Shown here: piece by piece, positions 26,660-31,047 of the stretch
Position numbering within the stretch: the first letter of the stretch is position 1
Layout: each line of letters starts with the position of its first letter
From: Chitinophagales bacterium
Lineage (GTDB): Bacteria; Bacteroidota; Bacteroidia; Chitinophagales; CAIOSU01
DNA length: 50,885 nucleotides
NCBI GenBank assembly: GCA_040877935.1
Contig: JBBDNB010000055.1
Span: 1 to 50,885 of the forward strand
Direction: 5' to 3'
The notes under the pieces: generated by a model
The model's database searches: none
What the model was told of the DNA's origin: nothing
The model's input: the letters and a program-made list of their open reading frames with translations, nothing else
Made by a program: the position numbers and the translations under genes

Positions 26660-26679
26660 CAATGGGTCATGACCCATTG
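26660..26679. repeat. REP-like palindrome, type A
   Basis: A 20-nt perfect palindrome, CAATGGGTCATGACCCATTG, followed by GAATACC. Core GGGTCATGACCC. It is the left-most of a set found only from here to 31047 in this window, surrounding the type IIG gene with the transposase-like insert. Confidence 0.85.
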
Positions 26680-26778: not shown

Positions 26779-29700
26779 ATGGCTCTATTCCAAAACTCAG
26801 TCCTCAATAAACACCTCAACAACCTTGATGATAAAGAGATAGAAAAGGCTTATGAAGCTTTTCGCAGTTATTTCCATGATGCTGATATTCAGGAAAATAT
26901 TAGGCAAAGCAAAGAAGAACAATTTCAGGAAGGTTTTTTAAGAGAACTGTTTGTCAAAATACTTGGGTACACGCTTAACCCACATAAAGACTATAACCTT
27001 ACCACAGAACTCAAAAATGAAAAAGGAGCCAAAAAGACTGATGGCGCAATACTGAAAGATGGTAAAGCATTGGCAGTAATAGAATTAAAGGGAACAGATA
27101 CCAAAGACCTGGACAAGGTAAATGACCAGGCTTTCAGTTACAAAAACCACCACAGCGAATGTGTGTATGTGATTACTTCCAATTTTGAAAAGCTGCGGTT
27201 TTTCATCCACAATGCCGTAGAGCATATTGAGTTTGATTTATTTCATCTTACTCAAGACCAGTTTAAAGTACTTTGGCTTTGCCTTCAGGTTGACAATATT
27301 TTAGAGGGAATACCACTGAAAGCCAATAAGGAAAGTATTCTCAAAGAAGAGCAAATTACCAAACAGCTCTATAAGGACTATTCCAGTTTTAAGCACCAGA
27401 TATGGCAAAACATCTGTAAAAATAGCCCTGAACTCGATCAACTATTATTATTCAAAAAATCACAGAAGCTTTTAGACCGTTTTCTGTTTATCTTTTTTGC
27501 TGAAGATAGCGGGCTCTTGCCTCCCAATTCTATTTTCAGAATGGTTGAGAGATATGATAAGCTTATAGAACTGGATGCGTACAAACCACTGTATGAAATA
27601 TTCAAACAATATTTTGGCTATATCAATACCGGTAGAAAGGGGAAAGCAAGACAGGATGATATTTTTGAATACAATGGAGGCCTGTTTCGAAAAGATGAAA
27701 TACTGGACAATATTCAGATAGATGATGAAGTATTGAAACCCCATGTACTAAGGCTTACTGAATACGATTTTCAAAGTGAAGTGGACGTCAATATTCTTGG
27801 ACATATTTTTGAAAACTCACTGAATGAAATAGAAAACGTAACTGCTGAACTGGAAGGGCAGGAAATAGATAAGAGCAAGACCAAGAGAAAGAAAGACGGT
27901 GTTTTTTACACCCCCAAATACATTACCAAATACATAGTGAAAAACACTGTTGGCAGACTCTGTGAAGAGAAAAAAGCTGAACTTGAAATTGAAGATGAAC
28001 AGTATGCTAAAGGAAGGAGAAACAGAGATAAGAAAGTTGTAAAAAAATTAGACGCTAAGCTTCAACAATACAGAAAGTGGCTATTGGGAATTACCATTTG
28101 TGACCCTGCTTGTGGTTCCGGTGCATTTTTAAACCAGGCATTGGAATTCTTGATAGCGGAACACCAATTTATTGATACTCTTGAGACACAGCTATTAGGT
28201 TATGATTTTGAGTTTCCAGGCGTAGAGGCAAAGATATTGGAACACAATATTTTTGGGGTAGATATAAATGATGAAAGTATTGAAATAGCCAAGCTTTCAC
28301 TTTGGTTGAGAACTGCACAAAGGGGAAGAAAGCTCACTTCTTTGAGCAATAATATTAAATGTGGCAACTCATTGATAGATGATCCTGAAGTAGCAGGAGA
28401 AAAAGCATTCAACTGGCAAAAGGAATTTCCAAATATTTTTAAGCAAAAGGAGCTGGAAGCTTTTCATATAGTATTGACTACACACAACAGTCGTGTTTCT
28501 GAGCGTATGCGCCAGAATAATATTAAGGCTGGTCCGCCTGTCAATCTTAGTTTAGGAGAGGAAATTGCGCTTACTGAAATTTTCAGGAAAATAATTACTG
28601 AAAACAATTACCGCTGCATTGCCTACAATATTTGCAAAGACCATGTACACATGATTTTGGTCTGTGAAGAAGAAGCACTTATCGGAATGGTACAACAGCT
28701 CAAATCGTTGAGCAGTAAAGAGTTTAATCGACTAGATCATCCAATTCCTCCAATGGGTCATCCTCCAATGGGTCACGACCCATTGAAAACCCAATCAGGG
28801 TACAACCCATCAGAGCACAACAATCATTTATGGTCACAAAAGTTTTTCTATGCCAACCTGGATGCCTGGTCATTTGAGCACAAAGGCTATGGCTATAGGG
28901 ATGAATATATCGATCGGGCGCGTGAATACATTAAAAACAATCGATTAAAACACGAATTGCCAGAAAGTAAAAAGCTTGAAAGCATTATTGACACATTTAC
29001 CATAGATCAGGACGAAGCATTTAAACCTCAATTTACCGGGGGATTTGATGTGGTGATTGGGAATCCGCCTTATGTAAAACTGGAAAAAATAAAACCTGTA
29101 TCAGAAGCACTTGAAAAAATCAACTACCAAACCTTTGATAAAAGAGGTGACCTATATGTGCTCTTTGTAGAAAAAGGATTCCAGCTCTTAAAGCAAAATG
29201 GCCTGATTTCATACATTATGCCCAATAAGTGGTTGCAGGCCGGATATGGAAAAAAGCTCAGGGAATTTTTGCTTACAAAACAAATAGATCGGTTAATTGA
29301 CTTTGGTGATATTCAGATTTTTGAAGGAGCCACAACTTATCCGGTTGTCTTTATTGCAAGAGATAATGCACCACAAAAAACATTTTTAGCAGCACTGCTG
29401 AAAGAAACAGTCAGCCAAGATTTTGAATCCAATGTTAACATCAATTCCCATGAATTTACAACAAGTGAATTCAGTGGAGATACCTGGGTTATTTCTTCAG
29501 GAGACGATAACAAGCTACTGAATAGAATTGGCAATAAATTTCCTCCCCTTAAAAAATTTGTGAAAGGTGAGGCTAATTATGGTATTAAAACTGGCTTATC
29601 AAATGCATTTACAATAGATGAAAATATAAAACAATCAATTGTTTCAGCAGACCCTAATGCTACTATTTTTATTAAACCATTTTTGCAAGGAAGGGACATC

Positions 29701-30564
29701 AAACGATATATACCCGCTTCTTCCTTAAATTATATGATAATTATTGAGAAAGGTTTTACAAAATCAGCAATGAACAACACAAATGCTTCTGAGCAAGAAG
29801 CCTGGGAATGGTTTAAAAATAAATATCCTGGTATGGCTGATTGGCTGTTTCCTTTTTCAGAAAAAGCCAGAAAAAGAACGGATAAGGGTGATTTTTGGTG
29901 GGAGCTGAGAACCTGTGATTACTACAACGATTTTGCAAAACCCAAAATCATGTATCAGGTTTTTCAGGTGAAACCCTGTTTTATCTATGATGAACAAGGC
30001 TTATATTGTAATAACTCCATGTGGATACTTCCCACAGACAACAAAGCACTACTCGGAATCTTAAATTCAAAAATGGGCTGGTGGTTGATCACAAAATATT
30101 GCACCCAAATTCAAAATGGTTATCAGTTGATCTGGAAATATTTTGGTCAAATCCCAATTCCTGATGTTTCAGCCTCCAGATTAGAGCCCTTTGTAAATGA
30201 GATAATGAGTCTGAAAGCGCAATTCAACAAACTGGAAATCTCATTCACCACATTATTACAATCAAAATTTACTATAGAGAAACTAAGTAAAAAATTAGAA
30301 AACTGGTATGAGCTGGAATTTTCAGAATTCCTAAAAGAACTGGAAAAAGCCCGAAAAAATGCAGCCAAAGAACAAGGGCAGGAATACAAAAAACTCTCCC
30401 TATCAGAAGAAGCTGAATGGATGAAGTATTTCAATGAGCAAAAAGCCAAAGCCCAGGAACTACAATCCCAAATCAATCAAACTGATAAGGAAATAGACCA
30501 AATGGTGTATGAGCTGTATGGTTTAACAGAGGAGGAAATTGAGGTTGTGGAATCCAACCCCTAA
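26779..30564 (+). CDS. Type IIG restriction-modification enzyme with nested Y1/RAYT transposase-like domain
   Basis: A 1261-aa single-chain enzyme. The N-terminal PD-(D/E)xK nuclease has D88 and E102-L-K104 (AVIELKG). The adenine methyltransferase has motif I DPACGSGAFL (442-451), CGNSLIDDPEVAG near 535, and motif IV NPPY (762-765). The C-terminal half is a TaqI/Eco57I-like target recognition region (FKPFLQGRDIKRY, WWLITKYCTQIQNGYQLIWKYFGQIPIP) and a coiled-coil tail. Between CGNSL and NPPY sits an insert (about 560-735) that begins AFHIVLTTHNSRVSERM, has HUH-type DHVHMILVCEE (H622, H624), LWSQKFFY, and REYIKNNRLKHELP (candidate catalytic Y717). This matches IS200-like/RAYT folds. Residues 658-670 are encoded by a REP palindrome. 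The frame is intact. Separate methylase or specificity genes are absent. Confidence 0.88.
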   Translation: MALFQNSVLNKHLNNLDDKEIEKAYEAFRSYFHDADIQENIRQSKEEQFQEGFLRELFVKILGYTLNPHKDYNLTTELKNEKGAKKTDGAILKDGKALAVIELKGTDTKDLDKVNDQAFSYKNHHSECVYVITSNFEKLRFFIHNAVEHIEFDLFHLTQDQFKVLWLCLQVDNILEGIPLKANKESILKEEQITKQLYKDYSSFKHQIWQNICKNSPELDQLLLFKKSQKLLDRFLFIFFAEDSGLLPPNSIFRMVERYDKLIELDAYKPLYEIFKQYFGYINTGRKGKARQDDIFEYNGGLFRKDEILDNIQIDDEVLKPHVLRLTEYDFQSEVDVNILGHIFENSLNEIENVTAELEGQEIDKSKTKRKKDGVFYTPKYITKYIVKNTVGRLCEEKKAELEIEDEQYAKGRRNRDKKVVKKLDAKLQQYRKWLLGITICDPACGSGAFLNQALEFLIAEHQFIDTLETQLLGYDFEFPGVEAKILEHNIFGVDINDESIEIAKLSLWLRTAQRGRKLTSLSNNIKCGNSLIDDPEVAGEKAFNWQKEFPNIFKQKELEAFHIVLTTHNSRVSERMRQNNIKAGPPVNLSLGEEIALTEIFRKIITENNYRCIAYNICKDHVHMILVCEEEALIGMVQQLKSLSSKEFNRLDHPIPPMGHPPMGHDPLKTQSGYNPSEHNNHLWSQKFFYANLDAWSFEHKGYGYRDEYIDRAREYIKNNRLKHELPESKKLESIIDTFTIDQDEAFKPQFTGGFDVVIGNPPYVKLEKIKPVSEALEKINYQTFDKRGDLYVLFVEKGFQLLKQNGLISYIMPNKWLQAGYGKKLREFLLTKQIDRLIDFGDIQIFEGATTYPVVFIARDNAPQKTFLAALLKETVSQDFESNVNINSHEFTTSEFSGDTWVISSGDDNKLLNRIGNKFPPLKKFVKGEANYGIKTGLSNAFTIDENIKQSIVSADPNATIFIKPFLQGRDIKRYIPASSLNYMIIIEKGFTKSAMNNTNASEQEAWEWFKNKYPGMADWLFPFSEKARKRTDKGDFWWELRTCDYYNDFAKPKIMYQVFQVKPCFIYDEQGLYCNNSMWILPTDNKALLGILNSKMGWWLITKYCTQIQNGYQLIWKYFGQIPIPDVSASRLEPFVNEIMSLKAQFNKLEISFTTLLQSKFTIEKLSKKLENWYELEFSEFLKELEKARKNAAKEQGQEYKKLSLSEEAEWMKYFNEQKAKAQELQSQINQTDKEIDQMVYELYGLTEEEIEVVESNP
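28750..28785. repeat. REP palindrome plus half-site inside the coding sequence
   Basis: A half-site (CCAATGGGTCA, 28750-28760) is followed by a near-perfect full palindrome at 28766-28785, with one mismatch at the centre (GGGTCACGACCC). Both are read in frame and encode PMGHPPMGHDPL within a loop of the RAYT-like insert. No stop codon is created. Confidence 0.8.
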
Positions 30565-30568
30565 CAAC

Positions 30569-30590
30569 CCAAGGGGTCATGACCCCTTGG
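30569..30590. repeat. REP-like palindrome, type B (copy 1)
   Basis: A 22-nt perfect palindrome with arms CCAAGGGGTCA and TGACCCCTTGG, five bases after the stop of the type IIG gene and followed by AATACAAAAG. It differs from type A only at the fifth base of each arm. It is part of the first of three tandem 182-bp units. Confidence 0.85.
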
Positions 30591-30620
30591 AATACAAAAG
30601 CTCTAACTTCATCTGCTCCG

Positions 30621-30746
30621 ATGGGTCATAAAGCACAAGAATTAAAATCACAAATCAACAAGACCGATAAAGAAATAGACCAAATGGTGTATGAGCTATA
30701 TGGTTTAACAGAAGAGGGGATTGAGGTTGTGGAATCCAACTCCTAA
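30621..30746 (+). pseudogene. 41-codon tail copy of the type IIG protein (unit 2)
   Basis: Starts with ATGGGTCAT from a half palindrome (MGHKAQELKSQINKTDKEID) and ends EEGIEVVESNS. It copies the C-terminal tail of the upstream enzyme with small changes (EE to EG, final Pro to Ser). It is probably a non-functional 3' remnant, although it does have an ATG. Confidence 0.6.
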
Positions 30747-30750
30747 CAAC

Positions 30751-30772
30751 CCAAGGGGTCATGACCCCTTGG
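30751..30772. repeat. REP-like palindrome, type B (copy 2)
   Basis: Identical to the 22-nt palindrome at 30569-30590, again five bases after a TAA, and followed by the same AATACAAAAGCTCTAAC. Confidence 0.85.
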
Positions 30773-30802
30773 AATACAAAAGCTCTAACTTCATCTGCTC
30801 CA

Positions 30803-30928
30803 ATGGGTCATAAAGCACAAGAATTAAAATCACAAATCGACAAGACCGATAAAGAAATAGACCAAATGGTGTATGAGCTGTATGGTTTAACAGAAGAGGG
30901 GATTGAGGTTGTGGAATCCAATTCCTAA
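30803..30928 (+). pseudogene. 41-codon tail copy of the type IIG protein (unit 3)
   Basis: Same layout as the copy at 30621-30746: MGHKAQELKS..., ending EEGIEVVESNS, with Asn changed to Asp in QIDKTD. Near identity to unit 2 shows a recent tandem duplication. Confidence 0.6.
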
Positions 30929-30932
30929 CAAC

Positions 30933-30954
30933 CCAAGGGGTCATGACCCCTTGG
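30933..30954. repeat. REP-like palindrome, type B (copy 3)
   Basis: Third identical 22-nt palindrome. After AATACA the sequence departs from the 182-bp repeat (AATTGAAAAAAAAC), marking the right end of the array. Confidence 0.85.
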
Positions 30955-31027
30955 AATACAATTGAAAAAAAACTTCCAAAATCTGGAAACTTTTCCATTC
31001 TATGTGGCACTGCTGGATTTCCTACTC

Positions 31028-31047
31028 CAATGGGTCATGACCCATTG
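31028..31047. repeat. REP-like palindrome, type A (right-most)
   Basis: CAATGGGTCATGACCCATTG, identical to 26660-26679, followed by CAATACC where the left copy has GAATACC. With the left copy it brackets the whole restriction gene and its tail array. Confidence 0.85.

Follow-up and report, generated by a model that had tools for sequence, protein, structure and literature searches.

What is a transposase-type domain doing in the middle of a restriction enzyme? The question is raised by one gene in a window of 50,885 nucleotides, the whole stretch of DNA analysed here (contig JBBDNB010000055.1, assembly GCA_040877935.1, from a Chitinophagales bacterium). The gene, at 26779..30564 on the forward strand, is a single open reading frame (ORF) of 1261 amino acids that encodes a type IIG restriction-modification (R-M) enzyme with a nested Y1 domain. 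We consider it likely that this domain, together with a palindrome family of its own, forms a REPtron-like unit, that is, a combination of repetitive extragenic palindromes (REPs) and transposase, living inside an R-M gene. The observations suggest a selfish hairpin-spreading module within an anti-phage enzyme, and the unit probably moves among homologous genes by recombination.

Fourteen uninserted homologues define the borders of the foreign segment. In these proteins a linker of 2 residues joins a FNWQKEFPxxF-like block to a [GD]GFDVVIGNPP block, whereas the window protein reads ...FNWQKEFPNIF, then the insert, then GGFDVVIGNPPY. The insert is in frame and covers residues 555-753 (28441..29037; this and all other features within the gene lie on the forward strand), comprising a Y1/HUH (His-hydrophobic-His) transposase domain and linkers. 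It lies between DPACGSG (residues 442-448, 28102..28122) and NPPY (residues 762-765, 29062..29073), which were found as sequence matches and which we take to be motifs I and IV of the methyltransferase; the site is a loop immediately ahead of motif IV. A preliminary description of this DNA had located an in-frame segment at 28440-28990, which is correct apart from being slightly short, and had regarded it as foreign to the enzyme core, in line with its complete absence from the 14 homologues. Translated loci show that 17 fused genes (the window gene, L016, L018-L026 and L041-L046, with L020 cut by a contig end) carry 167-262 residues at this same place.

The Y1_Tnp profile (PF01797) matches residues 597-651 with 29.1 bits in Pfam (cut-off 23) and 32.6 bits in a genome-wide search. 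This match is not due to chance, because the predicted fold of the insert also retrieves Y1 transposases. The model, built from 12 sequences, has a predicted local distance difference test score (pLDDT) of 76.9 and a predicted template modeling score (pTM) of 0.73, with the HUH-motif blocks (model residues 51-100) mostly at 94-96. In a Foldseek search against the PDB, the best 30 rows are all Y1 transposases (ISDra2, IS608, Sulfolobus and the TnpAREP entry 4er8), with E values from 1.5e-5, and the next row is an unrelated protein at E 0.03. VIA-align gives Z scores of 11.7 to 10.2 for 16 Y1 entries, including TnpAREP 4er8 at Z 10.4 across 126 residues, followed by a drop to 8.6; hits ranking lower than the Y1 entries (Thg1, ribosomal S6 and others) were set aside as common ferredoxin-like folds. 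These results confirm the insert as a complete Y1/HUH transposase domain of the single-strand DNA type, a foreign module inside a type IIG enzyme, as the preliminary description had proposed. No intein profile is present among the 9 Pfam families that match the window protein with E up to 0.1, a result obtained without a dedicated intein search.

The catalytic residues are retained. The HUH motif is formed by His622-Val-His624 (28642..28650), the candidate nucleophile is Tyr717 (28927..28929), and Asn721 (28939..28941), at Tyr+4, is the probable third metal ligand by analogy with the enzymes described in PMC6006769. Each of these positions is conserved in 18/18 relatives, whose Y1 domains read DHxH and Y[IV]xxN. 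The motifs AFHIVLTTH at residue 561, DHVHMIL at 621, REYIKNN at 715 and NPPY at 762 lie exactly where the preliminary description had put them. In four gene pairs drawn from five genes, the ratio of nonsynonymous to synonymous divergence (dN/dS) of the insert is 0.20, 0.10, 0.06 and 0.06, which shows purifying selection, on little data and with few testable pairs.

The window gene is flanked on both sides by palindromes, which the preliminary description had overlooked. An in-frame REP-like palindrome, CAATGGGTCACGACCCATTG (28766..28785, encoding PMGHDPL), is located in the linker that separates the HUH part of the insert from its Tyr part, next to a half copy at 28751-28765. Outside the frame, where no strand is assigned, CAATGGGTCATGACCCATTG is found 99 bp upstream of the start codon (26660..26679) and as a downstream boundary copy (31028..31047), and CAAGGGGTCATGACCCCTTG occurs just past the stop codon (30570..30589) and at 30752..30771 and 30934..30953. 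The palindromes are symmetric and an inverted orientation is not discernible. DNA folding of 28740-28815 gives a z score of -3.37, and four palindrome-bearing stretches of the window fold as DNA hairpins with z from -1.9 to -4.3. Palindromes of one family, both within the gene and beside it, support the earlier suggestion that the domain might read REP hairpins.

Separately, at 30448..30993 the 3' end of the R-M gene is repeated as three 182-bp copies in tandem, the second and third 91% and 77% identical to the first, with a palindrome in each.

The same association is observed in the relatives. We counted in-gene palindromes with arms of at least 9 and a loop of at most 2, and took the expectation from codon-synonym shuffles that keep protein and codon use. 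The 18 Y1-containing genes (17 fused genes and the stand-alone gene L017; 55.3 kb) hold 39 palindromes against 1.37 expected, all of them in the fused genes and none in L017, whereas the 14 genes without Y1 domain (42.5 kb) hold 1 against 1.28 expected. At least one palindrome is present in 17/17 fused genes but in 1/14 unfused genes (Fisher 7e-8). They measure 18-28 bp, the proposed own family being about 20-24 bp. Within the insert lie 23 of the 39; the other 16 are located in the R-M parts, where 1.13 are expected, and are distributed over 8/17 fused genes, compared with 1/14 unfused genes (Fisher 0.02). Besides the insert linker, in-frame sites are found in an N-terminal nuclease-like loop (in L041, DGAIL-TREHAPLA-...IELK), near residue 360-450, behind the Tyr helix and near the C terminus. 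On an alignment that places 38 of the 39 palindromes (L046 left out), 13 of the 16 in R-M parts fall at columns filled in <40% of unfused homologues, and the remaining three (one in L020, two in L023) at columns filled in 57-98%. A palindrome-like stretch of 21 bp is also one in-frame difference between L022 and the unfused gene L039.

Copies are also dispersed over the 4 Mb of the organism's own genome, where CAAKGGN8CCMTTG matches at 44 sites, compared with 0 for the reversed control; 38 of the 44 are near-perfect palindromes, and 19 of these are CAATGGGTCATGACCCATTG. As many as 33 near-perfect copies lie outside ORFs of at least 120 amino acids, one of them touching an ORF end. The other five are within ORFs, all type IIG: one in the window gene, three in a paralogue on contig C12 and one at the start of contig C2, whose type IIG 3' part may be the missing remainder of the C12 gene. 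Of the 44 sites, 6 are within or next to the window gene and 5 at the C12 paralogue. Only three PF01797 matches (E up to 0.001) are detected in this genome: the window gene, the fused gene L041 on C12, which is cut by the contig end, and a stand-alone gene on C43. The latter, L047 (G000:C43:38000-43000), is RAYT-like (REP-associated tyrosine transposase) and is framed by two palindromes of its own per side, GTTCGTAGCAAGGGTGCTACGAAC and ATCCGTAGCGCCTCGCTACGGAT, whose shared core, CGTAGCN6GCTACG, matches at 6 places in the genome. Because the only other Y1 gene found in this genome carries different hairpins, the fused domain is the candidate cognate enzyme of its palindromes; that different Y1 genes appear to go with different hairpins is the strongest argument for this assignment.

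Across genomes, near-perfect palindromes of the CAAKGG...CCMTTG shape are present in 10 of the 11 fused genomes examined (81/99 sites) and in 1 of 14 unfused genomes (2/14 sites), counts in which copies within the fused genes themselves are included. Once those at the fused locus are set aside, near-perfect copies number 25 in the own genome, 10 in G445, 5 in G442, 2 in G449 and 1 each in G447, G448 and G444, and there are none in G446, G450, G451 and G452. The G444 site may share a contig with L018; such copies occur in 6 or 7 of the 11 fused genomes and in 1 of the 14 unfused ones (Fisher 0.02 or 0.007). The remaining five fused genomes hold 1-4 sites each, by pattern count only, and in the L017 genome 0 of 3 sites are near-perfect. 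Most of 395 genomes of the phylum have 0-5 sites of the pattern.

How could such a unit work? By analogy with known TnpAREP enzymes, the nested domain would bind its own palindrome as a single-stranded hairpin, cut it through Tyr717 and rejoin it elsewhere. E. coli TnpAREP cuts and recombines single-stranded REP in vitro, and the Stenotrophomonas and Marinomonas enzymes cut their REPs, an activity lost in a Tyr mutant (PMC8266576). Rejoined palindromes would seed copies between genes, and could land in loops of the element's own gene when the product stays in frame; subclass 2.4 TnpAREP genes are described as containing in-frame REPs, generally between the HUH and Tyr motifs (PMC6006769). The R-M enzyme would tolerate the Y1 domain and shield it from loss, and the unit could reach other R-M genes via recombination through the conserved flanks or by its own strand transfer.

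Scanning genomes with the insert plus flanking sequence yielded 25 loci. In a draw of 395 genomes of the phylum, 6 genomes, the own one included, gave a match, and a profile search of the draw recovered the same 6 plus two weak 45-bit matches in frames of 180 and 199 amino acids. The named relatives are mostly labelled Bacteroidota; L016, from a metagenome-assembled genome, is labelled Thermus/Deinococcus. No plasmid or phage match was found (E up to 1e-5), and no mobile carrier was confirmed among 35 viral-contig stretches. The filled gene L022 and the empty gene L039 share 96% amino acid identity in the 206 residues available to the left of the site and 91% in the 471 to its right. Mapped on an N-part tree of 29 genes, 16 of them fused, insert presence needs 12 changes, at least 7 of them forced by well-supported branches; it is not clustered on the host tree, because shuffled labels need 9.8 changes on average. 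When 43 Y1 domains are placed on a tree, the 18 of the fused kind, L017 included, form one clade (93/74, or 97/96 without L046), which adjoins Y1 proteins with YIxxQxxHH (96/95). L017 is a stand-alone gene of 205 amino acids, 48% identical to the window insert, in agreement with the kinship to stand-alone Y1 proteins that the preliminary description implied. Its position, nested in the insert clade as sister of the window insert (98/91), suggests an escape from a fused gene. The simplest history compatible with these trees would be one capture, followed by gains, losses or exchanges at one exact site.

Exchange of the enzyme part after NPPY is frequent. Among the 11 pairs whose C parts can be compared, the N parts are 69-94% identical and the C parts 27-52% (two further pairs had no C part or just 12 residues), and in L022/L025 and L043/L044 the divergence begins near the 3' end of the insert. 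We do not attribute this specificity exchange to the Y1 domain, because unfused genes (L036 and L039 in the trees) show the same disagreement between N and C parts, and exchange thus does not require the domain. An independent transfer of the insert between L043 and L044 (insert dS 0.10 against 0.48 for the N part) is likewise not claimed, as values in neighboring segments are low too (0.06-0.28). Comparing the histories for congruence without L046 (9 genes) gives r 0.30 for N part and insert (p 0.05), 0.16 for insert and C part (p 0.14) and 0.20 for N and C parts (p 0.14); with L046 (10 genes) the values are 0.63 (p 0.006), 0.26 (p 0.06) and 0.31 (p 0.02). By these comparisons the modules have mixed histories, and the number of genes is too small for more. 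In L044 (G054:C10), the fused frame ends at 767 amino acids and C-terminal pieces continue in another frame; its specificity part differs from that of L043 from the same genus.

A bolder version of the mobile module is conceivable, although we regard it as rather unlikely: the Y1 domain would colonize restriction enzymes at a single precise position, where the constant part adjoins the exchangeable specificity part, and hairpins near both ends of the specificity cassette would make these joints breakable, so that the module would drive specificity shuffling as well as its own spread.

Several observations weigh against a palindrome-spreading unit. Outside the fused locus, 8 of the 11 fused genomes have at most 2 near-perfect copies, and spreading may be rare or extinct, because such copies are few or absent in most fused genomes examined. 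Many sites of the pattern occur in genomes without detected fusion (55 in G283, 44 in G087, 25 in G306, 19 in G389, 13 in G304, 11 in G271 and 10 in G194), all of which, except G304, have other Y1 genes; the idea that the pattern is exclusive to fused genomes is rejected by these many-site genomes. The stand-alone relative L017 has no palindrome family, and as a REPtron it was rejected, the palindrome nearby being single-copy. No GT[AG]G head is found at the palindrome foot beside the printed copies, where the commonest neighbors are TC and GA. The CAAKGG...CCMTTG shape is present in only 25 of the 39 in-gene palindromes, and some of them, such as GAATGTATTCGAATACATTC in the Tyr helix of L043/L044 or one L020 palindrome that sits where unfused genes also have residues, are not necessarily elements. 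The inserts stand apart from the sampled class 2 rows, which are themselves not one clade and among which no subclass 2.4 reference was identified. Because the modules have mixed histories, the scattered presence of the insert may reflect ordinary recombination, and the unfused genes were found by short peptides of the window's own flanks and are a non-random sample. Finally, the model of window residues 299-1150, covering methyltransferase and insert, is poor (pLDDT 70.9, pTM 0.50) and was not used.

Some of these points would fit a domesticated enzyme part, in which the Y1 domain has ceased to spread palindromes and serves restriction instead; it might, for example, bind or nick phage DNA in hairpin or single-stranded form, or control the methyltransferase. 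The insert is under purifying selection, the window gene retains its nuclease-like, methyltransferase and specificity regions, and dispersed copies are scarce in most fused genomes examined, all of which is compatible with such a role. We nevertheless hold it to be unlikely: the patchy presence and the empty site in a near-identical gene suggest that the domain is dispensable, a stand-alone form exists, and in-frame palindromes also occupy R-M parts in 8/17 fused genes, 13/16 of them where fewer than half of the unfused homologues have residues. Reduced to an inert passenger, the domain would be a single old insertion that is retained only through the tolerance of in-frame loops and is lost or exchanged by recombination. 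The position of the insert agrees with this, as it marks the transition from the conserved N part to the exchangeable specificity part, a place of frequent recombination, but catalytic residues kept in 18/18 sequences and dN/dS of 0.06-0.20 make it barely credible.

The palindromes might also be unrelated to the nested domain, being spread by another transposase or serving as protein-binding sites, and lie near the gene by chance or for regulation. Their symmetry, the missing GTAG head and the many sites in genomes without detected fusion speak for this explanation. It is very improbable in view of the 6 of 44 sites of a 4 Mb genome located in or beside the window gene, with 5 more at the second fused gene; all five copies inside ORFs fall in type IIG genes, the association recurs across relatives, and the only other Y1 gene found in the genome has different repeats of its own. 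We accordingly favor the REPtron-like unit. As to the earlier suggestion that the domain mobilizes the gene, the scattered presence and the one filled/empty pair are consistent with it, and ordinary recombination is a possible route.

The closest described systems are TnpAREP/RAYT proteins of subclass 2.4 (Bertels group 4; PMC6006769). Abundant among Bacteroidetes and Cyanobacteria, they share the Y1/HUH domain, palindromes both flanking the gene and in frame between HUH and Tyr, and the variable linker. In the description of PMC6006769 these are stand-alone proteins of 194 amino acids with NH[IFV]H and YIxNNP, whereas the insert has DHxH and YxxxN[RH]xKH and is nested in an R-M enzyme. Unlike in subclass 2.4, the palindromes also occur in R-M parts and have no GTAG head in the copies printed, and the clade is separate from the sampled rows. 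We do not class the window unit as a classical RAYT, because neither the GTAG head nor a tree position within class 2 was found. The RAYT-type placement in the preliminary description holds for the Y1 fold, but not for the position in a clade of its own beside the YIxxQxxHH proteins. These proteins, which resemble subclass 1.2 of PMC6006769, share DHxH and a His at Tyr+8 with the insert and are its nearest tree group; they differ in being stand-alone and in having Gln at Tyr+4. According to the same survey, subclass 1.2 is generally devoid of typical terminal secondary structures, and atypical palindrome structures are reported for subclass 2.6. The copy number in the own genome is below the usual >100 given for REPs in PMC2817692.

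A different parallel is the ShiLan domain, a homing insertion in a phage methylase (PMC11855218), which is likewise in frame, apparently non-splicing and patchy in a DNA methylase gene. Its homing enzyme is an out-of-frame HNH nuclease, whereas here the in-frame Y1 domain itself belongs to a nuclease/transposase class, has its own palindrome family and resides in a bacterial R-M host. Both palindromes within a transposase gene (PMC6006769) and in-frame homing insertion in a methylase (PMC11855218) were already known. What seems new is the host setting of this REPtron-like unit, together with a Y1 clade of its own and palindromes of a type that lacks the GTAG head. Among the titles and abstract openings listed by our searches of the open-licence PubMed Central (PMC) literature, no report of a RAYT/Y1 domain inside an R-M enzyme was found. 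The main texts of PMC6006769 and PMC2817692 do not use "restriction", "methyl" or "fused", nor does that of PMC2817692 use "fusion"; in the main text of PMC8266576, "restriction-modification" and "fused" are absent and the single "fusion" refers to a purification tag. The word "fusion" occurs twice in PMC6006769; in one of these passages the 2018 survey says that a few unexpectedly long proteins per subclass were discarded as gene fusions or annotation errors, and fused Y1 proteins may have been met there before without description.

The host protein itself has a type IIG architecture. Pfam detects Eco57I, N6_Mtase, MmeI and TaqI_C domains in its 1261 amino acids, and the PADLOC profile PDLC03609 identifies it as a type IIG restriction enzyme-methyltransferase with 1094 bits in total; in the best stretch, profile positions 1-557 pair with window residues 1-558. 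It is collinear with the profile over residues 1-558, has Eco57I/MmeI-like domains and differs from the 14 homologues in carrying the Y1 domain. The N-terminal nuclease-like region (HSDR_N_2, residues 53-142, 26935..27204) contains D...IELK, presumably the nuclease motif, and scores 23.9 bits, just below the Pfam cut-off of 25. A TaqI_C-like target recognition region (Pfam, residues 966-1127, 29674..30159) lies inside the exchangeable part. Nuclease, N6-methyltransferase and specificity domains are joined in one chain, with the nuclease profile just below its cut-off. From the retained domains and motifs and the low nonsynonymous divergence of the N parts, we infer that the fused enzyme still restricts.

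A further nested case was noticed in G283. There, L081 (G283:C58:1-1559) has a different Y1/RAYT domain (MPDHVH, YIEENPLKIGL) in frame within a RecG-like helicase frame, flanked by the palindromes GCACAGACATTCTTGTCTGTGC and GTAGCACAGACAAGAATGTCTGTGCTAC with a GTAG foot. The 518-amino-acid frame was rejected as another R-M fusion, since it reads as RecG by eye. In-frame REPtron nesting may be a wider phenomenon.

TnpAREP has been described as a domesticated transposase (PMC8266576). The present unit raises the questions of whether the domain moves its own hairpins, whether it helps or burdens the enzyme, and whether it promotes exchange of the specificity cassette. To our knowledge, how TnpAREP-type units persist and spread is an open question. 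Residence in an exchange-prone defense enzyme is a plausible way for a Y1/REP unit to persist and travel. These questions lend themselves to testing, since alleles with and without the insert are available, as are a stand-alone derivative and, within one genome, a defined palindrome family.

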